A DNA stretch of 64,000 bases. Origin: an uncultured Eubacteriales bacterium (GTDB lineage Bacteria; Bacillota; Clostridia; Oscillospirales; Oscillospiraceae). Shown piece by piece: positions 9,834-21,968 of this stretch. How positions within the stretch are numbered: the stretch's first letter is position 1; each line of letters starts with the position of its first letter. Below the pieces are notes generated by a model. It had not been told where the DNA came from. It saw only the letters and a program-made list of their open reading frames with translations, and did not search any database. Position numbers and translations under genes: made by a program. The stretch lies in contig UQQF01000005.1 in the NCBI GenBank assembly GCA_900543085.1, positions 10,286 to 74,285 of the forward strand. The letters are read 5' to 3'.

Positions 9834-10715
9834 TTATTTCTCATCCTCCACCTTCCCCGGCAGCTTCGCAGCGTCCTCAATGATGTCCGTCACTAGCTTC
9901 ATCGTCTTGGCGTTTTCGGCGCTTATTACGGGGCGACCCATCTCGCGCTCCAGCTCTTTTCTCGCGTTGCCGGCGACGCGGCCGCCGCGCTGAGCTACGC
10001 TCAGGTTCTCGGCCATGCCCTCGGGCTTTTCGATCTGCGAGATGCCCGTCGTGCTGGCTTCGGCCAGCATGTTCAGCACCAGCTCGAGGTCGCTCATGTT
10101 GTCGCGCAGGTTCTCCTTTTTGAGCCCCTTGAGGTCCTTATACTGCCGCGTGGTCATGCCTGACCACGCTTTACTTATCTCGTCCGTCAGTATCGCATAC
10201 TCGCGGCCCTTCTGTACGCCGCGTTTGCTCCACTCGTCCGTCAGCTCGTTGCGGATGCGTATCGCCAGCAGCCGCTGGTGCACCCACTCCTCGCTGTATC
10301 CCTTCTTGAGATACGTCTCGAGCGCGCGGTCGATGGCCTGCTCGGGGTCTATCGTCTCCTCGATACGCTCGCGGCCTACCTGCGCCAGCCAGAGCTTGAA
10401 CGGCTCGGCTTTCCGTGAGGGGATAGACTGGATGATGCGCAGCAGCTGTTCCGTGTCCGCGACGTCGGTGAGACGGCGCTTGCCGTCCTTAGACTTCAAT
10501 TTCAACTGCTGACAATTTGTCAGCAGTTCGTCCGCGCCCTCATCCTTGAGCCGCTGCTTGAGCTTAGCCCAGTAGTTGCTCGCGCCGCGCTTGTCCTTCT
10601 GGTCAGTCAGTGCGCCGACTACATCCACAACGGAAAAATACCATTCTTCGCGCTCGGCGTCCCATGCGGAGCGTATGGGCTGATCCTCAAATAACTGCAT
10701 TGCGTCGTTGCTCAT
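9834..10715 (-). CDS. Bro-N domain protein (phage antirepressor / DinD-like)
   Basis: About 293 residues starting at the ATG behind GGGGGTACATAGT. The N-terminal third (QLFEDQPIRSAWD..EWYFSVVDVVGAL..YWAKLKQRL) is the Bro-N DNA-binding domain of phage antirepressors and of the DNA-damage-inducible protein DinD; the helical remainder (WVHQRLLAIRIRNELTDEW, GMTTRQYKDLKGLKKENLRD) matches the DinD/P22AR-like C-terminal region. These genes are usual in prophage remnants and defence islands. No other phage genes are nearby, so it is probably an orphan cargo gene. Confidence 0.85.
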   Translation of the reverse strand: MSNDAMQLFEDQPIRSAWDAEREEWYFSVVDVVGALTDQKDKRGASNYWAKLKQRLKDEGADELLTNCQQLKLKSKDGKRRLTDVADTEQLLRIIQSIPSRKAEPFKLWLAQVGRERIEETIDPEQAIDRALETYLKKGYSEEWVHQRLLAIRIRNELTDEWSKRGVQKGREYAILTDEISKAWSGMTTRQYKDLKGLKKENLRDNMSDLELVLNMLAEASTTGISQIEKPEGMAENLSVAQRGGRVAGNARKELEREMGRPVISAENAKTMKLVTDIIEDAAKLPGKVEDEK

Positions 10716-10775
10716 ACTATGTACCCCCAAATTAGCTGATTAAATTGTACCACATTTTACCCGAAACTACAACGT

Positions 10776-10946
10776 TTATGTAACTTTTCGGCCCACCTCC
10801 TGCATTGCGGAGCAGAAGCGTTCCCACGGCTCCAACGTTGTCTGTGACGGGTCGCCCTCGCGGATGCGGAGGGTGCGGCGGATCTCCTTAGGGATAACGA
10901 CGCGGCCCAGGTCATCGATTCGGCGTACAATGCCGGTGGCTTTCAT
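10776..10946 (-). CDS. AbrB/SpoVT-type DNA-binding protein with an aberrant C-terminus
   Basis: 56 residues behind AGGAGGTATTTT. The segment MKATGIVRRIDDLGRVVIPK through IREGDP is the classic AbrB-type swapped-hairpin DNA-binding half. Where the family normally continues with EIF-type strand residues and an IL-K-Y motif, this one reads SQTTLEPWERFCSAMQEVG and stops. The second half of the fold is therefore missing or replaced, which suggests a deletion or recombination joint just after the GDP codons; it may not fold as a normal dimer. Confidence 0.75.
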   Translation of the reverse strand: MKATGIVRRIDDLGRVVIPKEIRRTLRIREGDPSQTTLEPWERFCSAMQEVGRKVT

Positions 10947-11340
10947 AAAATACCTCCTGCTTATATTTCTATGTGCAGGAATTAGTATCCGCAGTTTCCA
11001 ACCCTCTATGCGCAAGGTGGAATTTGGAAAAAGGAGTTGCGGAGGGTGTGACAGCCGCAGAGCTTCGTCATGAACTCCTTTGATTTCCATCATACATGTA
11101 AAACAGGTGCGAACGCCATCGTGCCGACAGAACCGCCAAAAAGAAGAACGCATATTACGTTCAAACGATTTGAGCTCAAGTGTCCATACACTGACTTTAG
11201 TCGGGACTGTGGAATTTTAGGGGGCAATAAATAGAATAGTAATTACGTAAAACTACATGTATAAAAGGCTGCACGTTTCCGGGATTGCCCCCGCGAAAAG
11301 GGGCGTTCCGGTACTTCTTCACGTTTTTGCCGTTGAAATA
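10947..11340. other. Non-coding stretch left of the CRISPR array
   Basis: 394 bases with no convincing gene. It holds the upstream region of the AbrB-like gene and the leader-distal flank of the array. A partial hairpin (GCCCCCGCGAAAAGGGGCG, 11287-11305) could end array transcription on the minus strand but has no T-run. Confidence 0.5.
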
Positions 11341-12640
11341 ATTTCAATTCACGCCCCCGTGTGGGGGCGGGCTTCAAGTCTGCGGAACGGTTTGCGCAGT
11401 GCTATCCCATTTCAATTCACGCCCCCGTGTGGGGGCGGGCTCTATGATTGCGCTTCCCCCGCTGCAAGGTATAAGATTTCAATTCACGCCCCCGTGTGGG
11501 GGCGGGCCGCTGGCAGCCTATTATGCTGCGCGGGAGTATCCGCTTATTTCAATTCACGCCCCCGTGTGGGGGCGGGCGCCGCGTTAATTGATGACGAGGA
11601 TGATGAGAGTTATTTCAATTCACGCCCCCGTGTGGGGGCGGGCGGCGCGTAGCGCCCCGCCTGGCCGCGCGTGCGCGATTTCAATTCACGCCCCCGTGTG
11701 GGGGCGGGCGTGTCGAATTGGCACGAATCGGGAAACTGGCAATTAATTCAAATCACGCCCCCGTGTGGGGGCGGGCCAACACCCCAGCGCGGGGGGGCGG
11801 ACGCCCCCCAATTTCAATTCACGCCCCCGTGTGGGGGCGGGCTTCGCTCCGCGAGCTGAAAGCGCTCAGCGAGGAATTTCAATTCACGCCCCCGTGTGGG
11901 GGCGGGCGGTTGCCTTGATATCGCTGAGAGCGCCATAGAGCAATTTCAATTCACGCCCCCGTGTGGGGGCGGGCTAGCATATGCGGTGCTTTTAGCGTAC
12001 TGCGAGGACATTTCAATTCACGCCCCCCGTGTGGGGGCGGGCCACGGTGATACTCCGGCACTATGATATAGGCCAATTTCAATTCACGCCCCCGTGTGGG
12101 GGCGGGCCCAACATCTCCGAGGTCGAGGTGTTCTATCCGCAATTTCAATTCACGCCCCCGTGTGGGGGCGGGGGGAGGCAAACAAAGTGGTATATCACAC
12201 CAGAGAGATTTCAATTCACGCCCCCGTGTGGGGGCGGGGCAAAATAAGAGCCGCCGAGACTGTAGCAGCAGACCTCATTTCAATTCACGCCCCCGTGTGG
12301 GGGCGGGCTATACTCCGCCTTAATCCTCAGCGCTTCCCGCGTATTTCAATTCACGCCCCCGTGTGGGGGCGGGTCCCCATTGAAGGGCTTATAGAAGCCG
12401 CAAACGAATTTCAATTCACGCCCCCGTGTGGGGGCGGGCGCCCGGCCTATACGTCGATAACGGCATGCTTAACTATATTTCAATTCACGCCCCCGTGTGG
12501 GGGCGGGCCGGTTGCCAATGCCTGATGATAAGTGCATACTTATTTCAATTCACGCCCCCGTGTGGGGGCGGGCCAGTGATAGGCTCGTCCTCCTTTGGCT
12601 TTTCTTCAATTTCAATTCACGCCCCCGTGTGGGGGCGGGC
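11341..12640 (-). CRISPR. Type I-C CRISPR array, 20 repeats and 19 spacers
   Basis: Twenty copies of a 32-base repeat that on the plus strand begins ATTTCAATTCACGCCCCC and ends GGGGGCGGGC; spacers are 33-38 bases. In crRNA orientation (minus strand) the repeat has stem CGCCCCC/GGGGGCG with loop ACAC and ends GTGAATTGAAAT, typical of type I-C. Repeat starts: 11341, 11409, 11476, 11546, 11612, 11678, 11745, 11811, 11876, 11943, 12010, 12076, 12142, 12208, 12277, 12343, 12408, 12477, 12542, 12609. Deviants: 11745 (two changes at the ATTTCAATT end), 12010 (one extra C, 33 bases), 12142, 12208 and 12343 (last plus-strand base changed). The leader should be on the right, next to cas2, so the newest spacer is at about 12574-12608. 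Confidence 0.97.
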
Positions 12641-12844
12641 AGCAAATTTGCATAAATGCAAAGTGCTGTTTATGTGCAAAATGGTAGAAACCAGAGATGG
12701 AATAAATGGTAAAAGATGGCTAATAAGCAAACCTGTACAATATACAGCTGATGGATTCGTGCCGCTTGAACAAAAGCATCCGGGACGCTATTGCGCCAAC
12801 CTGCCGGCATATTCTGTTTTGCCGAGGTCGGCGCAACAGCTGGC
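12641..12844 (-). promoter_or_regulatory. CRISPR leader region between cas2 and the array
   Basis: 204 bases, A+T-richer than the neighbours, no gene. On the minus strand it follows the cas2 stop and directly precedes the newest repeat, the position of a type I-C leader. A palindromic GCAAATTTGC abuts the first repeat. I see no strong promoter; TTGCAC-N17-TTTATG (ending close to the repeat) is the best weak candidate. Confidence 0.6.
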
Positions 12845-13135
12845 TTACAGGAGGATAGGTTCACCTGTCTGTACAAGACCTGTCCGACCCATGGTATCTA
12901 TGCGGGTTTGATAGCTGTTTCCAAGACGATAGAACCTGACAGAATCATGGTCGTGATCTATTATGGCCGCGAGCTCAGACTTTAATGTCGCCAATTGAGC
13001 GGGGTCGACCAGAAGCTCGAATACTGAATTCTGAACCCTAAGCCCATATCTCTCGCAAAGCTTAGCCACCTTACGCAGCCGCTTTTGACCGGCCGGGCTT
13101 GAGGTGTTTACGTCATATGTAACTAGCATCAGCAT
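12845..13135 (-). CDS. cas2: CRISPR-associated endoribonuclease/adaptation protein Cas2 (type I-C)
   Basis: 96 residues, normal for Cas2. The ferredoxin-like first strand MLMLVTYDV with Asp8 is intact, as is the type I-C C-terminal pattern (SVRFYRLGNSYQTRIDTMGR). Cas2 bridges two Cas1 dimers in the spacer integrase and is not known to integrate spacers alone. Here it starts 3 bases after the stop of a cas1 remnant and has no intact Cas1 partner in the window, so it is probably a leftover unless Cas1 is supplied by another locus. Confidence 0.93.
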   Translation of the reverse strand: MLMLVTYDVNTSSPAGQKRLRKVAKLCERYGLRVQNSVFELLVDPAQLATLKSELAAIIDHDHDSVRFYRLGNSYQTRIDTMGRTGLVQTGEPILL

Positions 13136-13138
13136 GGG

Positions 13139-13282
13139 TTATCTCCATACAAAAGGCGGGTAGCAGTCCAGGTCGCCGCGCAGAAGCCTGGCAAAAAGCA
13201 TGGCTTGCACATACGGGACTAAACCAATCTGCACCTTTTCTCCCAGGAAAGGATGATCGATGGTTGCGGCAAATAATCGCTG
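13139..13282 (-). pseudogene. cas1: Remnant of cas1 (last ~45 codons)
   Basis: Translating the gap between cas7 and cas2 on the minus strand gives DHPFLGEKVQIGLVPYVQAM, then LFARLLRGDLDCYPPFVWR and a TAA at 13141-13139. This is the conserved C-terminus of type I-C Cas1. The frame is the same as that of cas7, immediately after its TGA, with about nine residues (QRLFAATI) of unclear origin between. The rest of cas1 (about 290 codons) and all of cas4, which normally lie here, are gone: one deletion from the cas7 stop into the 3' part of cas1. Confidence 0.9.
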
Positions 13283-14278
13283 TCATCCAATTTGCAGCCA
13301 GTCCTCTCCATCAGGCAGCGCTCCCCAGCAAATCGGGCCGTATGGATTGCTCTGAAAGCCGATCTCTACGCCCGAGGGCACATTGTCGACGCTGACTACG
13401 GCATCATAGTCGCGATAGCTCCTGGCAAATTCTACGTCAGCTTTCTTCTGTACATGTACAAGCTCAAACAGCTTATGCGCGGGAGCGCAGCCCAGCTTGG
13501 CCTGACGCACCCGCTGAACCGCATCGCTGTCGTTGCCGACATGCTTGAAGATTATCAGCGGCGAGACAACTGACATCTCACCCTTGCTGGCAGAGTGGTC
13601 ATGCTCGTACATATTCAAAATGGCCTCGAACAGAGCCTGGAGGTCATCGTCGTCGAAGCCGGTCTCAGCCGCAAGGTTGGCGCTGATGAAGCCTCTAATC
13701 TCGTAGAGACCAAAGGGTATCAGCTGCTTTCGACCCATCGTGCGCAATTTGTCCTCGGCGGTTTCCGCCTCCATTTTCAGATAGTCCTCCACCTTGCCGT
13801 CCTTGATGGTTTCGGCAACGGCCGTGCGCGTTATGGAGATGTCCATGGGCAGCACAGGATCCAGGCTTTTTCCGAAGGCTATCTGCACCGGACCGCGCAC
13901 CTGACCCGCGTTGGGGCCGGTGGACATGACGGCGCCGAAGGTTCGCACGTCGAAGAAAAGCTCACACGCCTTCTTGCGGCCGGCGTATACAGCTTCCTTC
14001 TCCTTGGCACAGTCCTCAACGCCTGCGGCGCGTTTGGCCTCGGCTATGTGGCGGTTGAGATTCGTAGACTGCTGTACGATGATGTTCATGCCGGGCTGGC
14101 CGGCATATGCTGTCTGTATGTAGTTGCGTATGCGGCGCTTGATGGCCACGTCGGTTATAAAGCCCTGCATGGTCTGGGGATCGATGCGCGGGGCGTTTCC
14201 CATGTCGGGATCACCGTTTGGGTTGGCGTTGGTGCACGCGACGTAGTACACGAATTCATAACGGTTCTGGATAGCCAT
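13283..14278 (-). CDS. cas7: Cascade backbone protein Cas7 (Csd2, type I-C)
   Basis: 331 residues, slightly longer than the usual 280-300. The start NRYEFVYYVACTNANPNGDP is the standard Cas7/Csd2 opening, and KHVGNDSDAVQRVRQAKLG and YDAVVSVDNVPSGVE are family segments. Cas7 forms the helical backbone on the crRNA spacer. The ATG follows GAGGAGAGAAAC, 13 bases after cas8c. Its 3' end borders the cas4-cas1 deletion. Confidence 0.95.
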   Translation of the reverse strand: MAIQNRYEFVYYVACTNANPNGDPDMGNAPRIDPQTMQGFITDVAIKRRIRNYIQTAYAGQPGMNIIVQQSTNLNRHIAEAKRAAGVEDCAKEKEAVYAGRKKACELFFDVRTFGAVMSTGPNAGQVRGPVQIAFGKSLDPVLPMDISITRTAVAETIKDGKVEDYLKMEAETAEDKLRTMGRKQLIPFGLYEIRGFISANLAAETGFDDDDLQALFEAILNMYEHDHSASKGEMSVVSPLIIFKHVGNDSDAVQRVRQAKLGCAPAHKLFELVHVQKKADVEFARSYRDYDAVVSVDNVPSGVEIGFQSNPYGPICWGALPDGEDWLQIG

Positions 14279-14291
14279 GTTTCTCTCCTCC

Positions 14292-16082
14292 TCAGTCAGC
14301 TTTCTTTTCCGCGGCGGCTGCGGCGCGGATACGACGGTCTTTTGCTATTTTGGCGCACATCTGGTAGTAGCCCAGTGCAAAGTACGACTGCAGCTCTGGG
14401 CTCAGAACGGTCGGAGCGTTATCCCCTATGGCACAAGCGACTTGATCGCGCAGCTCAGCGTAATCCTTCTTCTGCCAATTAGACAATTTGCCAATGTGAT
14501 AATTTGACAGCTTGGACAGTTGGCCAAGCACCAGAGCCGGGGTTTGAATGGCGGATGCATAGTACCGGTCGATCAGGCTGGCGTTGACATCCCCCATGGC
14601 GAGTCTTTGGATCTCACCGTATACGGCCACCAGTGCTCCGCAGTGATAGGCGGGCTCCGGGTGCTTTTCGTTATATTCCATAGCAAGCTCCTCCTTTTGG
14701 TATTTTTGCCTCTCCTTGCGGCACAGCCAAGCCTTCAGCCACTGACAGGCCCAGGGGTCGGGAGTTTTGCGAACCTGGTTTTCGGCCGTGGAGCTGAGCA
14801 TCTGAGAGCGGATATAAGACAGTGCGCGCACGGCGGTTGCATTGGGAAGCTGGGTGCCGTTGATTATGGCGCTGATAATAGCGGGTGTAAGGCCTGCCAG
14901 CTCCTTGGACATACGATCAAAAACATTTTTGTCCGAGCTCTGCTTTGCCATCAGGCGAATAAGCCTGGCAGACAATTTGGCGGGCTTGATTGCTGCGGTG
15001 CCCGAGCTGTTGATGAGAGACAGGTCGCTCTCCCACTTCCTCAGATTTTCGGTCAATTGCCCATAATTGCCCACTTCATAGGAACGCACCATGACACGGC
15101 CGCCTACTCCGCTGAGCAGTAAAATATAGTACAGGTTGGGCAAATCATGCACGGGCGTACCGGTTTTGACCGAAGCTATGTGCTCGTTTGCCTGATCTCT
15201 TGCCAGTTTGGGGTCTACATCCGGTTCCCGCCGGAGGCCTGCATCTTCGTCGTCTTCGTCGTTAAATGCGGAGTATATGATGGAGTCAATGCAGTCGCAC
15301 TCCGCCTCAACCGGCTTGTCGTACCAATGGACGAATTTCATGCCGGACAAGACCGGAGCTTTTTTCAGAAGCTCATCAAGCGCAGCTTTCACTCCGGCAA
15401 ATGCGTCTTCAGACACGGGCGCGTTGGAGCCCTGCTTTAAACCGTAAGAGCAGAAGGCGTCTTTATCAAAGCAAATCAGCGTGTCTCCGCGCGCGTGCCC
15501 GCCGACGACGGACAGGCCGGAAATCGGCGGCACCGTAGCCGTGGGTATCGTGAGCTTGCCGGTTATCAGGCAGGGGGCTCTGCTGCCGGAGGGGCGGAAC
15601 TGCTGCCTGAACTGTTCCCACCAGCTCCGCACGGCTGGATATTCCAGTATGCTTACACCGTCTACCATGAAGCTGAGCACTTTGGCGCCGTCCAGCTTGA
15701 GGCGATCCAGCTCGCCGGAAACGCTCGCTGCCACCTCCTCGTTACACAGAGCGTCCAGACAGAACTTCAGACGCGGCTCCATCTTTGCGGCGTCTGCCAT
15801 GGTCTCGCGGAAGTACGCCGCCTTGGCGGCGTATTTTTCGCGCTGCTGTTCATCGCTGGGAAAGAGGATGCTGCGCTTTTCGGCCAGCACGTTGCACTTG
15901 TCACCGCTGTTTGCAAGGCTGCCGATGTCCGGACAGGGGACCTTTTCGTTGCTTGTGGATATTATTCCTACATATTTTCCGCCTCTTGAAAGCGATATGT
16001 ACGCGCGAACCGGCTTTTTTACATACCCGGCGGGCAAAATCAGGTTTTCCCGGAGCGCGTAATCGTACAGTTCTCTCAGCAT
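14292..16082 (-). CDS. cas8c: Cascade large subunit Cas8c (Csd1)
   Basis: 596 residues, normal for Csd1. Family segments include FVDGVSILEYP-like FMVDGVSILEYP, RAPCLITGKL, GNAPVSEDAF-type NAPVSEDAFAG, and the C-terminal helical small-subunit region (QLSKLSNYHIGKLSNWQKKD). Cas8c recognises the PAM and, in I-C, an internal translation product serves as Cas11. It overlaps cas5 by seven bases, so the two are translationally coupled, with GGGAGAG upstream of the ATG. Confidence 0.95.
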   Translation of the reverse strand: MLRELYDYALRENLILPAGYVKKPVRAYISLSRGGKYVGIISTSNEKVPCPDIGSLANSGDKCNVLAEKRSILFPSDEQQREKYAAKAAYFRETMADAAKMEPRLKFCLDALCNEEVAASVSGELDRLKLDGAKVLSFMVDGVSILEYPAVRSWWEQFRQQFRPSGSRAPCLITGKLTIPTATVPPISGLSVVGGHARGDTLICFDKDAFCSYGLKQGSNAPVSEDAFAGVKAALDELLKKAPVLSGMKFVHWYDKPVEAECDCIDSIIYSAFNDEDDEDAGLRREPDVDPKLARDQANEHIASVKTGTPVHDLPNLYYILLLSGVGGRVMVRSYEVGNYGQLTENLRKWESDLSLINSSGTAAIKPAKLSARLIRLMAKQSSDKNVFDRMSKELAGLTPAIISAIINGTQLPNATAVRALSYIRSQMLSSTAENQVRKTPDPWACQWLKAWLCRKERQKYQKEELAMEYNEKHPEPAYHCGALVAVYGEIQRLAMGDVNASLIDRYYASAIQTPALVLGQLSKLSNYHIGKLSNWQKKDYAELRDQVACAIGDNAPTVLSPELQSYFALGYYQMCAKIAKDRRIRAAAAAEKKAD

Positions 16083-16732
16083 ACGGGCTCTCCCTTCAAA
16101 ACCTCCGGGCTGTCATAGGGAGGAACGTGTATCACGCCCTGCTTCATCACGCAGTGGTAAAGCGACAAACGCGGCCTCGCCTTTTTTCTCAGCTCGTAAT
16201 CATTGAGGTCGAATACATCGTAGACCATCAGCCCTAAATCCATATCGACGGGTATCGGCTTCGGTCCGGCGGAGTCGCCCTCCTGAAAATAAGCCACAAA
16301 CTCCTTGAGGCCCAGTGCGGGCTGTACATAGGCTTTGCCATCGCGTATCCGGCGCAGCGCCTGGGCATACAGCTGGGTCTCGGTGCCTCCGAAATCCGGG
16401 CGGGGGCAGATGCTTGCGGCAAAACGGTAGCGTACATCACGCAGTGCGACCGTCTGCCGTCGGGTTCGGTCGTCGTCGGTAAAAATCGGCTTGTCCCTCA
16501 CTTTTGATTTGACCTCGTTGCGTTTGAAGCTGATGTAGCGGATGGGGTTGAGCACTTCGATTCGGTTTACCTGCCACACGAACTCCCTCGGTTTAGCGTA
16601 GATGCTTGAAAGTATCCCGCGCACAGACGACGGGGTCGGCACGGGATAGGTCAGGCGTTCCACTTTGCTCTCGGGTCTGGCAAAGCAGGCAAAGTCACCC
16701 CAGACTTCCAAAACGATTTCCAAATTCTTCAC
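16076..16732 (-). CDS. cas5: Pre-crRNA endonuclease and Cascade subunit Cas5c (Cas5d)
   Basis: About 218 residues. VWGDFACFARPESKVERLTY at the N-terminus and the VPTPSSVRGILSSIYAKP segment identify Cas5 of type I-C, the subtype in which Cas5 replaces Cas6 and cuts the repeat hairpin to give an 11-base 5' handle. The first possible start is GTG at 16732, but the GGAGG site overlaps it; the TTG at 16723 is correctly spaced from GGAGG and may be the true start. An unusual 173-base gap separates it from cas3 and holds a promoter and a CRISPR-like element. Confidence 0.93.
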   Translation of the reverse strand: MKNLEIVLEVWGDFACFARPESKVERLTYPVPTPSSVRGILSSIYAKPREFVWQVNRIEVLNPIRYISFKRNEVKSKVRDKPIFTDDDRTRRQTVALRDVRYRFAASICPRPDFGGTETQLYAQALRRIRDGKAYVQPALGLKEFVAYFQEGDSAGPKPIPVDMDLGLMVYDVFDLNDYELRKKARPRLSLYHCVMKQGVIHVPPYDSPEVLKGEPVC

Positions 16733-16739
16733 CTCCGTT

Positions 16740-16816
16740 TTCCTGGCTGAGTGCGACGCCCAGCCAGGAATGATAATGCTTATATTTCAATTCCCAGCTC
16801 ACTCAAATGAGCTGTC
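16740..16816 (-). ncRNA. Candidate Cas-regulating RNA: solitary degenerate CRISPR repeat plus pseudo-spacer
   Basis: On the minus strand a 33-base element (16816-16784) ends GGGAATTGAAAT, matching the array repeat's 3' end GTGAATTGAAAT, and is preceded by a hairpin AGCTCA-TTTGAG-TGAGCT in place of the array's GC stem. It starts at the predicted transcription start of the promoter at 16823-16851. The following pseudo-spacer begins ATAAGCATTATCATT. The plus strand over the same promoter reads ATAAGTATTACAATT (16817-16831): identical at 1-5, 7-10 and 13-15, with mismatches only at 6, 11 and 12. A ten-base-pair hairpin (TTCCTGGCTG/CAGCCAGGAA, 16740-16770) closes the element before the cas5 ribosome binding site. 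Resembles CreR/CreA RNAs known from other CRISPR types; function inferred. Confidence 0.5.
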
Positions 16817-16822
16817 ATAAGT

Positions 16823-16851
16823 ATTACAATTGAAAACCCTAAATCTGTCAA
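16823..16851 (-). promoter_or_regulatory. Internal promoter for cas5-cas8c-cas7-cas2
   Basis: TTGACA (16851-16846), 17 bases, TGTAAT (16828-16823) on the minus strand: a near-consensus vegetative promoter. Predicted transcription start is about 16817-16815, exactly at the repeat-like element. It separates expression of the Cascade genes from cas3. Confidence 0.8.
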
Positions 16852-16867
16852 GCACTGGCTTACAGAA

Positions 16868-16905
16868 AAGTAAAAAACCAGCAGCGTAGTTGCGCTGCCG
16901 GTTCT
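16868..16905 (-). terminator. Terminator after cas3
   Basis: On the minus strand GAACCGGCAGCG CAACTA CGCTGCTGGTT is followed by TTTTTTAC, a Rho-independent terminator immediately after the cas3 stop. Together with the promoter just downstream it splits the cas locus into two transcription units. Confidence 0.8.
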
Positions 16906-19125
16906 TTACGATATAAATATGCCGTCATCAGGTGCCAGAGCGACAAGCTGAAGCCCTGCATCCTTATGATAATACTTTTCATGTCCTGTGGACAGTATGT
17001 AAAAATCGCTCTCTGTCCGCGCGTCCGAGCTCCTTTTTCGATATGGTATCTGTTCGCAGTGCTGCCTGACCAATTCTTCGTTAAAGCAGGACACAGTGAT
17101 AGGCGCAGCCTCCTTGATAAGCGCCGGGGTTACGCCGTCCTTTTCTGCTGACAGGCGTATTTTTGCCAGCAGGTCTTCGTCATAGGGCACGACTACCTGT
17201 ACACCCTGGTTCTCTATGAGCTTGTACTCTCTCTCGACTGCTTCATAGTTCTCGGAAGAAATTGCTTCTGTCAGGTTCTCGTTATCTTTTACAGTGCGGA
17301 ACAGAAGCCGGTAATACTCCTTTATGGACTCCGGACTGTGGATGTCAAGATCTCCGTTTATATACATGAGCTTTACCTTCCCGGCGGCATTGCCGTACGC
17401 TTCGCCGGGGTAGATGCTGCGTTCGTCATCCGGTATGAACACGGTGACGGTTCCGCCTCCCGGCAAAAGCCCGTTTCGGTTGCAGCGTCCGGCGGCCTGG
17501 ATTATGGCTTCGAGCGGGGCAAGGGCGCGGTACATGGACTCGAAATCCAAATCCACGCCCGCCTCTATGCATTGAGTAGCCACAACTCGGCAGGGAAGGT
17601 GGTGAGAGAGACGGGAGTTTATGGCGTCGATCACATCGCTCCTGTGTGCGGGACAGAGATCGGTGGTCAGAAAGAACAGACCGTCCCTTTCGCTTTCGGG
17701 ACACAGCCTTTTCAGCTCGGTAAACAAACGCAGCGCGTGGCGGCGAAGGTTTACGATTGCGCAAACGCTGTTCTGGGCGGACATCTCAAAAGCAATGTCC
17801 TCGAGCGCTGTCGGGCGATCCAGGTTCCAACGTATGCGTGTGCGCTTCAGGGCATCGTAAAGCTTGTTTCCCTCGGGAAGAATCTCTCTGGGGCGCCAGT
17901 CTGTCAAGCCCGGCAAAGCCGCAAAATCCGGCTGTGTAGCCGTAGAAAATACCATGGTGCAACCGTAGTCACTGCACAGAGATGAGACGGAGCGCATCGT
18001 GGCGGCGGCAAGCTCCGCCGGCAGGCTTTGAGCCTCGTCAAACAGGATGACGCTTTGAGCAATATTGTGGAGCCTGCGGCAGTCCCTCGGGCGTGAGGAA
18101 AACAGGCTCTCAAAAAACCGAACCGATGTCGTAATAATAAATGGCGAGTCCCAGCGGCTGGCCAATTCCAGCTGTTCATTGCTCAGCCTGCTCTGGCTGT
18201 GATCGGCCAGAATGTCCGGACATAGCTTTTCATATGCTCTCTGACTTTGCTCAGTAAGCGTCAGGAATGGAAGCACAAGTATGATTCGCCGCTTGCCGTG
18301 CGCTGCGCAGTGACGCAGCGCAAAGTGCAAAAGCGCCATAGTTTTTCCTACGCCGGTCGGAGCTGTCAGCGTGAACAAGCCCGGAGCCATTTCCCCTGCG
18401 TCTCCGCACTGCGTGAATACCTCGTCGCGCAAAGCGTTCAACGCTTTGTTTGAGTTTGAGCCAGACCTCAGCTCCCGCATGTGATCGTAAAGCCTGGACA
18501 GAAGCTGCCGTGGCTGCAAGCTCTCGCTCTCTGCCGCAGCACCGCCGGCGGAGGCTGTATAGTCGGCGTCCACCAGGCACGACAGGAGCATACGGGCGCG
18601 AAGCATCTTTTCGTCTATGGATTTATCCACAAACCGTTCCAGCCCGGAAGGCTTGAAATCGGGGAAATCACGCATGAATGCCAGAAAGGCGGCACCGTAT
18701 TCTTCCTGCCCGAAAAGCGCCGCCCTTTTCCCGCTGGCGCAGCTACCCTGGCCTTGTCCGAGGCGTATTGCCTTGAGCTCCGGTTTCATACGGCTGAATG
18801 CGCGCAAAGCGCTGTGGTGCGCTGCCGAGACGGCAGCTGCGAGACAAAGAGCGGGGTCTTCGTTCTTCGATAGGCGTGCTATATATAACAGCACTGCAGA
18901 GCATATGGCGTGGTCGACGTTGGTTGCCGTTCCTTTTAGAACGTTTTGGAATAATTCGCTGTACTTTCCGAAATCGTGTATTATGCCTGTTAACCAGGCT
19001 GTTTTTGGCATGCCGATTTCCTCTCCGCAGCGCAGAGCCAGAGCGGCGACCGCGCCCAGGTGCTCCCGGTTGGTGACCTTATTCCCAAACTCATCTGCGG
19101 ATTTGGCATAATAAATCATAGACAC
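16906..19125 (-). CDS. cas3: CRISPR nuclease-helicase Cas3 (type I-C)
   Basis: 739 residues, full length. HD nuclease residues are visible: H50-D51 in GIIHDFGK, H72 in VDHA, and H103-H104 in SAAHHS. The superfamily 2 helicase has Walker A TAPTGVGKT (254-262), DEAQ (363-366), and late motifs TQCIEAGVDLDFE and QAAGRCNRNG. Cas3 is recruited by Cascade to unwind and degrade target DNA. The start is GTG at 19125 or ATG at 19119; neither has a strong ribosome binding site. All catalytic motifs are intact, so interference may still work although adaptation cannot. Confidence 0.95.
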   Translation of the reverse strand: MSMIYYAKSADEFGNKVTNREHLGAVAALALRCGEEIGMPKTAWLTGIIHDFGKYSELFQNVLKGTATNVDHAICSAVLLYIARLSKNEDPALCLAAAVSAAHHSALRAFSRMKPELKAIRLGQGQGSCASGKRAALFGQEEYGAAFLAFMRDFPDFKPSGLERFVDKSIDEKMLRARMLLSCLVDADYTASAGGAAAESESLQPRQLLSRLYDHMRELRSGSNSNKALNALRDEVFTQCGDAGEMAPGLFTLTAPTGVGKTMALLHFALRHCAAHGKRRIILVLPFLTLTEQSQRAYEKLCPDILADHSQSRLSNEQLELASRWDSPFIITTSVRFFESLFSSRPRDCRRLHNIAQSVILFDEAQSLPAELAAATMRSVSSLCSDYGCTMVFSTATQPDFAALPGLTDWRPREILPEGNKLYDALKRTRIRWNLDRPTALEDIAFEMSAQNSVCAIVNLRRHALRLFTELKRLCPESERDGLFFLTTDLCPAHRSDVIDAINSRLSHHLPCRVVATQCIEAGVDLDFESMYRALAPLEAIIQAAGRCNRNGLLPGGGTVTVFIPDDERSIYPGEAYGNAAGKVKLMYINGDLDIHSPESIKEYYRLLFRTVKDNENLTEAISSENYEAVEREYKLIENQGVQVVVPYDEDLLAKIRLSAEKDGVTPALIKEAAPITVSCFNEELVRQHCEQIPYRKRSSDARTESDFYILSTGHEKYYHKDAGLQLVALAPDDGIFIS

Positions 19126-19472
19126 GGTTCAATCACCCACAATCAGTTGAAATACCACGCCGGACGTTCGGCGTTCGAGGCTGAGCTTACGGACTGCCAT
19201 CGGAGAATTGCACAGCGTCGGAGCTTGCAACATGCGTTCCTGTATTTGCCGCTTCAATTCTAGCATGTTTGGGCCGGAACCACAATAATCATATAGCTTT
19301 TTGACCCGCTGCCGGCGCCGTCGGGCATAGCAGTCCCCCCACTCCACGCGTAGAAAAAACTTTTTCAAAAAATTTTTCCCGCCGACCCCGGTTTCGGCGG
19401 GGGCGCTCCGTAATCTATGGGTGTAAGCGAAAAACAAAACGCCAAACACACATAAATAAGGAGATGACTTAA
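19126..19472. other. Divergent intergenic region between cas3 and the lipoprotein gene
   Basis: 347 bases. No convincing gene; a short minus-strand reading frame ends just before cas3 but has no ribosome binding site or recognisable family. A GCCGA/TCGGC hairpin lies at 19381-19398. ACCCCG (19385-19390), 18 bases, CGTAA (19409-19413) loosely resembles SigI promoters (ACCCCC and CGAA/CGTA type boxes) before the lipoprotein gene; weak evidence. Confidence 0.4.
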
Positions 19473-20381
19473 ATGAAGAAGCTCAACGTCAAAACGATAG
19501 GTATCGCCGCCGCGGCCGCCGCAATGCTCGTCCTCGCCGGGTGCGGGGAGAACGGCACGGCCTCCCTCCCGCAGGAGAGCCAGGGCGCACAGGGCATCGC
19601 CGCCCCGCAGGAGACCGCCGGAACGCTGCTGCTCAGCGTGAACCCCGCGATAGAGCTGGACTACGACATGGCAGGCAACGTGCTGCAGCTCAACGCCCTC
19701 AACGACGACGCCAAGGCCGTGCTCGCCGGCTACGACAGCTACTACGGCCGCAGCGCCGAGGTCGTCGCCGCCGAGCTGGTGGGCGAGATAGACGAGGCCG
19801 GGTACTTCGACACGACCGTCGCCGGTCAGGAGCGCAACATCGTGCTCAAGCTCGAGCGCGGCAGCGAGTACCCCGAGGGCTTCCTCACCGGGATAGAGAA
19901 CTCCATCCGCCAGGCCGTCAGCGAGCAGGGAGGCACCAGCCGCCCCGTGACGATAGGCGAGAACGACTACAACGCGGCCTACGCCGGCCGCGGCTACATC
20001 AGCGAGAGCGCCGCCGAGCGCCTGGTCGCGGCTCAGACCGGCGTCAGCAACCCGCAGTTCGTTGTCAAAGATTACGAGCTGGACGACGGCGACTACGAGG
20101 TGGAGCTGATAGTCGACGGCGTGGAGTACGAGTACGAGGTCGACGCCTACACCGGCCGAGTGACCGAGGTCGAGCGCGACGACGACGGACTTGACGACCG
20201 CTACGACGATATTTACGACGATGTCTACGACGACCGCTGGGACGATCTCGACGACCTCTACGACGACGACCGCTACGATGACTGGGACGACGATGACGAT
20301 GACTGGGATGACGACGATGACGATGACGACTGGGACGACGATTGGGATGACGATGACTGGGATGACGACTGGGACGACTGA
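19473..20381 (+). CDS. Lipoprotein with RsgI-like and PepSY domains and an Asp/Trp-rich tail
   Basis: 302 residues behind AAGGAGATGACTTAA. Residues 1-24 are a lipoprotein signal with lipobox LAGC (Cys24). Residues 51-128 (LLLSVNPAIELDYDMAG, then LNALNDDAKAVL) match the extracytoplasmic middle domain of RsgI anti-sigma factors. Residues 172-236 (GYISESAAERLVAAQTGV through YEVDAYTGRVTEVE) are a PepSY domain. The last ~66 residues consist almost only of D with W, Y and R, in units such as DDWDDD. The neighbouring RsgI has a homologous middle domain and the same type of tail, so the two probably form a surface pair; a cation-binding role for the tail is inferred. Confidence 0.8.
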   Translation: MKKLNVKTIGIAAAAAAMLVLAGCGENGTASLPQESQGAQGIAAPQETAGTLLLSVNPAIELDYDMAGNVLQLNALNDDAKAVLAGYDSYYGRSAEVVAAELVGEIDEAGYFDTTVAGQERNIVLKLERGSEYPEGFLTGIENSIRQAVSEQGGTSRPVTIGENDYNAAYAGRGYISESAAERLVAAQTGVSNPQFVVKDYELDDGDYEVELIVDGVEYEYEVDAYTGRVTEVERDDDGLDDRYDDIYDDVYDDRWDDLDDLYDDDRYDDWDDDDDDWDDDDDDDDWDDDWDDDDWDDDWDD

Positions 20382-20511
20382 GCGGTTAATCGAGATTTAA
20401 CCCGGATTTCACGTGGATTTGATGTAAAATCCTGCCGATTATGATATTCTCGTAAAAACCCACGCGCCGGCCTTGAAAACAGACCGGCGCGCGGATTTAT
20501 GGGGGATGAAG

Positions 20512-21225
20512 ATGGTCTCTACGAAGCAGGACATAATTGAATGGGTGCTCGCGGCCAAGGAGGACTCCGACGCAGCCGACAGCCTGATAAGCCAGTACAT
20601 GGGCTTCATCCGCGCCGAGGCCAAAAAGCTCAGCTTCGGCGACGGCGAGGACGAGCTGAGCATAGCCATGCTCGCGTTCTACGAGGCCGTGCTCGGCTAC
20701 GAGAAATCGCGCGGGAGCTTCCTCGGCTTCGCCGCGAAGGTGATACGCTCACGCCTTATAGACTACCACCGCGCCGAGAGCCGCCACCGCGGCCACGGCT
20801 CGCTGAACGAGCGCGCGGGCGAGGACGGAGCCGAGCTTTTGGAGCTGCTGCCCGACACGCGCGACGACATAGAGGAGCTGAACACCCGCGAGGCGGCGCA
20901 GGGCGAGATAGAGGAGTTCGCCCGGACGCTGGCCGCCTTCGGCCTGACCTTCTCCGACGTCGCGGACAACTGCCCGAAGCAGGAGCGCACGCTCCGCGCC
21001 TGCCTCGACGCCCTGAACTATGCGAGGCGGCGGCCGGAGCTGCTCGCGGCCGTGGAAAGGAGCGGCAAGCTGCCCATTGCTGAGCTGGCCTCCGGCGCGG
21101 GAGCGGAGCGCAAGACGCTGGAGCGGCACAGAAAGTACCTGGTCGCCATGCTGCTCGCGTTCACCAACGGATTTGAGATAATACGCGGCCACCTGTGCAG
21201 GCTCGACGCCGGGAGGGGGACATAA
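20512..21225 (+). CDS. sigI: RNA polymerase sigma factor SigI
   Basis: 237 residues starting at the ATG six bases after GGGGG. Region 2 (DSLISQYMGFIRAEAKK, DDELSIAMLAFYEAV-type EDELSIAMLAFYEAVLGYE, RGSFLGFAAKVIRSRLIDYH) and the C-terminal segment GLTFSDVADNCPKQ...ERHRKYLVAMLLAFTNGFEIIRGH are diagnostic of SigI; the last is split here only for brevity. SigI controls heat, cell-wall or polysaccharide responses in Bacilli and Clostridia and is held by RsgI. Its TAA overlaps the rsgI ATG (TAATG), so the pair is coupled. A GCGCCGG/CCGGCGC hairpin lies upstream at 20464-20494. Confidence 0.92.
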   Translation: MVSTKQDIIEWVLAAKEDSDAADSLISQYMGFIRAEAKKLSFGDGEDELSIAMLAFYEAVLGYEKSRGSFLGFAAKVIRSRLIDYHRAESRHRGHGSLNERAGEDGAELLELLPDTRDDIEELNTREAAQGEIEEFARTLAAFGLTFSDVADNCPKQERTLRACLDALNYARRRPELLAAVERSGKLPIAELASGAGAERKTLERHRKYLVAMLLAFTNGFEIIRGHLCRLDAGRGT

Positions 21226-21968
21226 TGAAATACCTGATACTTGAGTCCCGCGCCGCCTACTGCGTCGCCCTCGGCGAGGACGGGCGCTGCGTCAAGTGCG
21301 CCAACATGCGCTACGAGGTCGGCGACAGGGTGGAGGACGTTGTCGAGCTGAAGCTGCCCGAGCGCCGCGACAGACGCCGGACGGTGCGCATGATCTCGCT
21401 CTGCGCGGGGCTGGCCGCCTGCGTGTGCATAGCCTTCTTCGGCTGGTACCGCCCAAATTACGCGGCCTACGGCACCATGCGCATGAGCATCAACCCGGAC
21501 GTGGAGCTGACGCTCAGCCGCACGGAGCGAGTCCTGGACGCCGAGGCGCTGAACGCCGACGGCGCCGCGCTGCTGGAGGGCATGGACTTCTCTGGCATGG
21601 ACGCCCGGGAGGCGGCGGAAGCCCTGGTCGCGCAGTCCATCGCCGGCGGCTTCCTCGCCGAGGGCGGACAGGTGACCGTCTCCGTGGACGGCGGCAGCGA
21701 GAGCTGGCGCAGCGAGACCGAGCAGGACACGCTTGAAGCGCTCGAGCAGCGCTACGGCGGCTTTGCGATAATCCGCACGCCGGACGACCCGGTGATCACC
21801 ATCCCGGTTCCGACGCCGACGCCTAGCCCGACGCCGTCGCCGACCGCCGCTCCAACGCCGATCACCGGTGTAACCGATGACGACGGCCGCTATGACGATG
21901 ATGACGACGATGACGATGATTGGGATGACAATGACGCCGGAGACGATGATGACGATTGGGACGACTGA
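21225..21968 (+). CDS. rsgI: Anti-sigma factor RsgI with Asp/Trp-rich tail
   Basis: 247 residues beginning at the ATG overlapping the sigI stop, behind GGGAGGGGG. Residues 1-45 (KYLILESRAAYCVALGEDG) are the cytoplasmic RsgI N-terminal domain that binds SigI; 55-74 is the single membrane helix; 80-156 (RMSINPDVELTLSRTERVL) is the conserved periplasmic-side domain. A Pro/Thr linker (194-212, PTPTPSPTPSP) leads to a tail at 218-247 made of D with W, Y and N. In cellulolytic clostridia the C-terminus carries carbohydrate-binding or enzyme domains that sense polysaccharides; here the acidic tail takes that place, so the signal is probably different. Confidence 0.9.
   Translation: MKYLILESRAAYCVALGEDGRCVKCANMRYEVGDRVEDVVELKLPERRDRRRTVRMISLCAGLAACVCIAFFGWYRPNYAAYGTMRMSINPDVELTLSRTERVLDAEALNADGAALLEGMDFSGMDAREAAEALVAQSIAGGFLAEGGQVTVSVDGGSESWRSETEQDTLEALEQRYGGFAIIRTPDDPVITIPVPTPTPSPTPSPTAAPTPITGVTDDDGRYDDDDDDDDDWDDNDAGDDDDDWDD

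Follow-up and report, generated by a model that had tools for sequence, protein, structure and literature searches.

A putative self-repressing guide RNA encoded between cas3 and cas5c of a type I-C CRISPR locus

The type I-C locus and its cas3-cas5c gap

The DNA analysed here, a 64-kb stretch from an uncultured Eubacteriales bacterium referred to as the window, carries on its minus strand a type I-C locus in which cas3 is followed by a 173-nt gap, cas5c, cas8c, cas7, cas2 and an array of 20 repeats. The assignment to type I-C relies on cas3, cas5c, cas8c, cas7 and repeats of 32 nt; cas4 and cas1 are missing. The features of the locus are as follows.

16906..19125, minus strand: cas3, separate and upstream (cas3_HD, E 2e-22, above its cut-off)
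16870..16909, minus strand: terminator-like hairpin at the cas3 end, 17 pairs and then TTTT
16846..16851, minus strand: −35 element TTGACA, read from the sequence
16823..16828, minus strand: −10 element TGTAAT at 17-nt spacing, read from the sequence
16817..16831, plus strand: target (protospacer) ATAAGTATTACAATT, predicted start site through −10, located by its match to the guide
16814..16816, plus strand: PAM-like GTC adjoining the target, read from the sequence
16795..16814, minus strand: hairpin 1, a repeat-like stem-loop (z −4.0) with predicted Cas5c cleavage at its 3' base
16784..16794, minus strand: 11-nt handle GGAATTGAAAT; the array handle is TGAATTGAAAT
16769..16783, minus strand: 15-nt guide (pseudo-spacer) ATAAGCATTATCATT, matching the promoter
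16742..16768, minus strand: hairpin 2 (z −4.05), 5 nt short of GGAGG
16732..16736, minus strand: GGAGG, probable cas5 ribosome-binding site
16076..16732, minus strand: cas5c, the type I-C crRNA-processing Cas5 (TIGR01876, E 4e-34)
14292..16082, minus strand: cas8c (TIGR01863, E 6e-70)
13283..14278, minus strand: cas7 (TIGR02589, E 3e-86)
12845..13135, minus strand: cas2 (TIGR01573, E 1e-20)
11340..12651, minus strand: CRISPR array, 20 repeats, consensus GCCCGCCCCCACACGGGGGCGTGAATTGAAAT

A second cas3 model, cas3_core, also matched the gene (E 2e-27, 96.2 bits), under its cut-off of 102.45. The mechanically listed cas5 start, GTG at 16732, overlaps GGAGG, and TTG at 16723 is likely to be the start instead. 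The adaptation genes have been lost, cas4 and cas1 being absent between cas7 and cas2. The cas7-cas2 gap holds a Cas1 remnant of 47 residues (13142-13282, minus strand; 64% identity to the Cas1 of the related locus L012, E 2e-16). Weak similarity to Cas4 also extends over the end of cas7 (36% over 47 residues, E 9e-5), and nothing else in the window convincingly matched cas4 or cas1 when it was searched by tblastn with the proteins of L012. Among 21 relatives checked for these genes, 14 had both, three had cas4 alone at a contig end and four had neither, one of the latter being L002, which lies on a 15-kb stretch. Within the array, the repeat at about 12009-12042 has a one-base insertion in its stem. 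Beyond cas3, translations of two plus-strand genes (19473-20381 and 21195-21968) end in long aspartate-rich C-terminal tails, and that of the open reading frame between them (20473-21225) resembles a sigma factor.

The terminator-like hairpin after cas3 should keep cas3 apart from the cas5 transcript, so the Cascade genes should need a promoter of their own, and the cas3-cas5c gap has one. An initial annotation of the sequence had placed TTGACA-N17-TGTAAT between cas3 and cas5, and both elements are present (16851-16846 and 16828-16823); a consensus promoter scan reported no promoter in the gap because it demands an A at position 2 of the −10 element. On the minus strand the order is TTGACA, 17 nt, TGTAAT, 6 nt, hairpin 1, handle and guide. 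The annotation had also described an isolated repeat-like hairpin with an array-like 3' end, followed by a pseudo-spacer that matches the plus strand over the −10 element, and each of these was found in place. The hairpin (16814-16795) lies outside the array and near the cas genes, and the 3' end of the element, GGGAATTGAAAT, is identical to that of the array, GTGAATTGAAAT, at 11 of 12 positions. The guide (16783-16769) matches the target at 12 of 15 positions, with mismatches at 6, 11 and 12, and GTC precedes the match (16814-16831 with the triplet). Positions 1-5 and 7-10 are paired and 11 is not, which we counted as the pairing pattern of CreR RNAs. The promoter match stops where hairpin 2 starts.

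None of 1000 simple shuffles of the 120 upstream nucleotides reached the score of the window. When both strands of the whole window were searched, the target was the sole site besides the guide itself with at least 12 of 13 scored positions; the next-best site, with 11 of 13, does not match the first five bases and adjoins ATG. An Rfam search of 10500-20000 up to E 1 gave no match to the element, the sole match in this interval being Thr_leader at 16868-16998 (24.1 bits, against a gathering score of 55).

The element in related loci

Relatives were collected with a Cas5c scan, from which the best 80 of 107 loci were taken, and with genome searches that added 13 loci, of which six were contigs already in the set and one was L033, as judged by handles and coordinates. 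Genome samples searched at E 1e-60 gave 8 of 394, 2 of 397 and 3 of 350; samples searched at E 1e-85 gave 1 of 396 and 1 of 391, only genomes already in the set. The closest Cas5 relatives among the best 80 of 107 come from assemblies titled Oscillospiraceae, Gemmiger and Limiplasma. No close Cas5 relative was found in viral contigs, and those in plasmids (49 records) and phages (two records) were all below 60% identity.

Counting the window, 24 non-duplicate loci drawn from the best 80 of 107 and the genome samples carry the handle motif GAATTGAAAT between cas3 and cas5, with at most one mismatch in 22 of them and two in L002 and L020. A quick Cas5 tree with six outgroup rows, poorly supported at 11 of its 29 inner branches, places 26 loci in one clade (SH-aLRT 100); these include L007 and L010, in which the handle motif was not found. 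By eye, no such element is present in the distant loci L023-L037, L040 and L068, in which cas5 lies close behind cas3, and the one-mismatch motifs of L030 and L093 are chance occurrences. Arrays were compared for 14 of the 26 loci: 13 end in GAATTGAAAT, and that of L022 ends in GAATTGAAAC, as does the L022 element. One-base departures of the element from the array form are GAAAA in L005, L009 and L011 and GAATAG in L017, L018 and L021, with further ones in L008, L013 and L084; by pattern search, the genomes of L011, L018 and L021 contain GAATTGAAA repeats, and the L017 genome gave no match.

Guide-promoter agreement was scored at positions 1-14 without 6 and 12, that is, at 12 positions. The guide matches its own promoter at 10 to 12 of these in 20 of the 24 handle-motif loci, window included, and the triplet beside the target is GTC in 16 and GTT in four of the 20 (GTY). 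After L014, L015, L016 and L019 were dropped as close kin of L012, 16 of the 20 remaining loci match. Per position, agreement among these 16 is 16, 16, 15, 16 and 16 at positions 1-5, 15, 15, 14, 16 and 15 at 7-11, and 13, 12 and 11 at 13-15; it falls to three at position 6 and one at position 12, and is one to eight at each of positions 16 to 30. In 20000 permutations of the targets among the 16 loci, a procedure that ignores kinship, the 79 of 80 agreeing cells at positions 1-5 compare with a permuted mean of 40.8 and a maximum of 60, the 75 of 80 at 7-11 with a maximum of 69, and the 36 of 48 at 13-15 with a maximum of 34, while positions 6 and 12 agree at chance level. On the Cas5 tree, the first five guide bases have undergone at least 13 changes on the guide side and on the target side. 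At position 12 the target carries A in 13 of the 16 loci and the guide never does, which looks like avoidance rather than neutrality.

Because omitting positions 6 and 12 could bias the choice of site, the loci were rescored with all 15 positions. The sites of the 16 were unchanged and L001 joined them with 9 of 15 beside GTT; positions 6 and 12 match in three and two of these 17, and the best site adjoins GTC or GTT in 17 of 20 loci. When the site was chosen from the promoter alone, 12 of 20 loci matched at 10 or more of 15 positions, and 10 of those 12 sites start exactly 6 nt after the −10 element. This rule found no eligible triplet in L006 and L084, missed L012 and L017 because it took another triplet, and failed in L001, L002, L004 and L008. 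In 13 of the 16 reduced loci the guide scores strictly best at its own promoter when compared with those of the other 23 loci; the ties are L006 with L016, L085 with L022 and L092, and L012 with its close kin. L084, L085 and L092, added once the pattern was recognised, match at 12, 10 and 12 of 12 positions. The Cas5 reading frame of L084, a 12 of 12 match, holds one TGA. Single-locus shuffles across the 20 matched loci reached the observed score in 0 to 35 of 1000 trials, L085 (35), L014 (14) and L020 (11) being the weaker cases. In a scan of whole loci for handle-like motifs with a nearby match, at a threshold of at least 11 of 13, 2709 motifs gave 34 hits, and three control motifs gave 36 from 2150, 5 from 671 and 8 from 1999, so that the raw count is not above one of the three controls; 18 of the 34 hits are the cas3-cas5 elements, and L020 and L085 fell under the threshold.

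Seed-promoter covariation, sought across related cas3-cas5 gaps, was found, with mismatches mainly at 6 and 12, and the repeat-like end and the seed-promoter match are both kept in 20 of the 24 loci; the relatives strongly support the self-targeting guide that the initial annotation had read from a single sequence. That annotation had offered as an alternative an ordinary operator dyad, since the two segments also form an inverted repeat. A protein repressor would then bind there, and the segments are indeed inverted in 19 of the 20 matched loci, window included. This alternative fails on several counts. Target and handle are separated by anything from 31 to 102 nt; positions 6 and 12 are unmatched while their neighbours match; the sequences differ between relatives with the match retained; and an operator gives no reason for a handle or for a constant GTY. 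In L006, the locus of the cultured strain Flintibacter muris DSM 110149, moreover, the target lies on the other strand, again beside GTC, and the segments are direct rather than inverted, which argues against both an operator dyad and an RNA hairpin. We consider an operator highly improbable.

Four of the 24 loci have the motif and no good match. L001 has a weak match at the same place and L008, by eye, a match with a one-base slip; in L004 the promoter is present and the leader short, and L002 has seemingly lost sequence between −35 and the handle. Inspection by eye shows no evident promoter in L007 or L010. Guide loss thus seems to accompany damage to the promoter or leader. The element could accordingly be seen as a functionless relic of a self-targeting spacer, or a stray repeat, given the loss of the match in four loci and of the element in two; a relic would not be expected to retain its match through at least 13 seed changes on both sides, and this reading is most unlikely.

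Target flanks and leader anatomy

GTY is not among the type I-C PAMs given in the available part of PMC8482600. The L006 target, on the other strand, lies beside GTC where start-site constraints do not apply, which suggests that GTC is read as a PAM. Spacers were also compared with viral sequences. IMG/VR scans with five spacers gave no match, and searches of phages with eight arrays gave none for the window, L015, L012 and L014; the arrays of L016, L006, L007 and L004 matched one, two, one and 19 phage records, respectively. Flanks were taken from four hits, with H15, H16 and Pseudomonas phage records left out. The triplet is ACC beside the L006 spacer target (E 6e-5) and ATC beside that of L016 (E 0.1), and the seed region of two L004 hits is too diverged for PAM use; an array PAM could not be derived from these four hits.

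Hairpin 1 leaves 8 to 14 unpaired bases ahead of the guide in 18 of the 20 matched loci, compared with 11 for a type I-C repeat; in L006 and L020 its predicted fold takes in handle bases too. No sequence likeness is evident between this stem and the array repeats. A second hairpin follows the guide in the matched loci, its best predicted start falling at guide positions 14 to 17 in eight loci including the window (L020 weak), at 21 to 25 in another eight and at 9 to 12 in four (L017 weak as scored). In L020 the predicted stem of hairpin 2 extends into the cas5 start region. Neither the two-repeat mini-CRISPR form, usual though not universal for CreR, nor a second repeat or terminator defining the 3' end of the guide RNA was found: there is one repeat-like element, and then hairpin 2.

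No terminator was found between guide and cas5, by terminator scan in the window and by eye in the relatives, so the transcript should run into cas5, and the guide apparently serves as leader to the mRNA it would control. We tentatively entertain, at somewhat less than even confidence, a more specific candidate reading, in which the cas5-cas8c-cas7 mRNA itself carries the guide as its 5' leader, in place of a separate small RNA. Cas5c would cut its own mRNA and expose the handle, so that each transcript could return Cascade to its promoter; hairpin 2 would trim the guide to about 15 nt, giving a shortened Cascade that silences and cannot recruit Cas3, and might also occupy the ribosome-binding site.

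The same anatomy lends itself to two readings that involve RNA alone. Cas5c might tune expression merely by binding and cutting the hairpin in its own mRNA leader, with no DNA targeting. The predicted 5' leader does include both hairpin and handle, no terminator was found ahead of cas5 in the window, and type I-C Cas5 recognises a hairpin and 3' single strand (PMC3890593, available text). Such cutting does not predict that 15 post-handle bases track the promoter with 6 and 12 skipped and GTY adjoining; as a sole explanation it is very unlikely, and it may act in addition to DNA targeting. Alternatively, the guide might pair inside the transcript as an attenuator, a reading favoured by the strong leader hairpins. 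The matched segment lies at and upstream of the predicted start, so the transcript should not contain it, and the direct match of L006 cannot pair; we give an attenuator almost no credence.

Proposed autorepression and its known counterparts

Repeat-like guides also occur in distant type I-C loci titled planctomycetes. In L043 (about 7393), L047 (about 5898) and L051 (about 7702) the cas3-cas5 gap carries a guide on its opposite strand. With 12 to 13 of 13 scored positions agreeing, a mismatch at 6 and TTC or GTC alongside, this guide matches what looks by eye like the start of a promoter-like stretch leading to a short ORF or RNA ahead of cas5. These guides look like CreTA or CrePA modules in type I-C, and a fourth such module is possible in the planctomycete-titled L059 (about 7633), in which a repeat-like guide in the cas3-cas5 gap has an exact match of 15 beside TTT, likewise at the start of such a stretch. 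L043, L047 and L051 came to notice in the whole-locus scan, whose raw count was not above one of the three controls. In the 1000 bases before cas5 of 58 distant loci, 12 motif matches, some overlapping, were examined; besides L043, L047 and L051, only L036 reached 10 of 13. Given these cases and a guide logic that is the same, the element in the window might be the CreA of a toxin-antitoxin module and not a cas regulator. In CreTA the target promoter drives a toxin; here it reads straight into cas5, with only about 93 nt of leader between, and the window has no other comparable target site. A toxin-antitoxin role is barely conceivable, and on the evidence given above this reading, the operator dyad, the RNA attenuator and the relic were set aside.

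The gap has a handle, hairpins, a target match and a PAM-like motif, with co-variation among relatives and Cascade-like mismatch spacing. In all likelihood it encodes a CreR-type, crRNA-like guide by which the type I-C Cascade represses itself, with processing, loading and repression predicted from the DNA. Type I-C Cas5 cuts the base of the repeat hairpin to leave an 11-nt 5' handle and a 21-nt 3' hairpin tag (PMC5965380, PMC3890593), and every sixth guide base is flipped out in Cascade, as described for type I-E (PMC5965380). Haloarchaeal CreA depends on bases 1-5 and 7-11 and leaves 6 and 12 free (PMC8501985; all as given in the available text of these papers). From this fingerprint, which the loci studied here share and extend to 13-15, we conclude that Cascade loaded with the guide very probably represses the cas5 promoter.

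The mechanism may be pictured as follows. Transcription would start about where hairpin 1 begins (predicted start about 16816), Cas5c would cut at the 3' base of hairpin 1 to yield the 11-nt handle, and Cascade would load the handle and 15-nt guide. Through positions 1-5, 7-11 and 13-15 and a candidate GTY PAM, it would open the DNA from the start site through −10, and RNA polymerase would be blocked at the opened promoter. Limited pairing does not license Cas3 cutting in other type I systems, and so short a pairing should not license it here. Cascade would thus limit its own supply, and by analogy with CreR, whose release by crRNAs or anti-CRISPRs is described in reviews (PMC12737573, PMC12948488, in the parts available), repression would be released when crRNAs or inhibitors such as anti-CRISPRs occupy Cascade. 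Against this explanation stands position 11 of the window, a seed base in published CreA, which is mismatched.

The element resembles the CreA of CreTA in pairing through 1-5 and 7-11 while leaving 6 and 12 free, in a PAM or PAM-like triplet adjoining the target and in a degenerate repeat, and a one-repeat CreA is on record from H. hispanica. It differs in that CreA silences a toxin RNA, whereas the guide here is directed at the operon of the effector itself, with pairing up to position 15 (PMC8501985 for CreA, as far as its available text goes). Like CreR, the cas-regulating RNAs attributed to Liu et al. (2023), it is a crRNA-like guide near the cas genes with a partial match to a cas promoter and predicted autorepression. 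CreR is listed for types I-B, I-E and V-A in the available part of PMC13131331 and for "Type I and Type V-A", without subtypes, in that of PMC12737573. Unlike CreR as excerpted there, the element belongs to type I-C, is single, has a stem unrelated to the array, reads into cas5 and carries hairpin 2 where a second repeat would be. This suggests a compact unit made up of promoter, guide and the mRNA under control; searches for repeat similarity would easily miss such an element, since no more than about 10 bases are array-like.

Shmakov et al. (2023) reportedly described crRNA-like regulatory elements as standalone repeats with spacers partly matching cas promoters, and Workman et al. (2021) are said to have found a natural single-guide RNA that represses Cas9's own promoter. 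In the Cas9 case, too, a natural guide represses the promoter of its own effector; Cas9 is type II with a tracrRNA-derived guide, whereas the present element is type I-C and crRNA-like. Unlike Racr, a phage RNA anti-CRISPR in which a solitary repeat resides in a virus or plasmid, it lies between the cas3 and cas5 of its own system. The literature surveyed, in the parts available and with Liu 2023 and Shmakov 2023 outside its scope, names no I-C case of such guides, and one review speaks of type I generally. The loci would provide a natural record of what Cascade needs for silencing, namely GTY and bases 1-5, 7-11 and 13-15, with no pairing called for at 6 and 12. The principle itself has precedent; the type I-C setting, the single degenerate repeat and the leader position together appear to be new, with priority subject to Liu 2023 and Shmakov 2023, and guide-based self-repression of CRISPR effectors appears to extend to type I-C.
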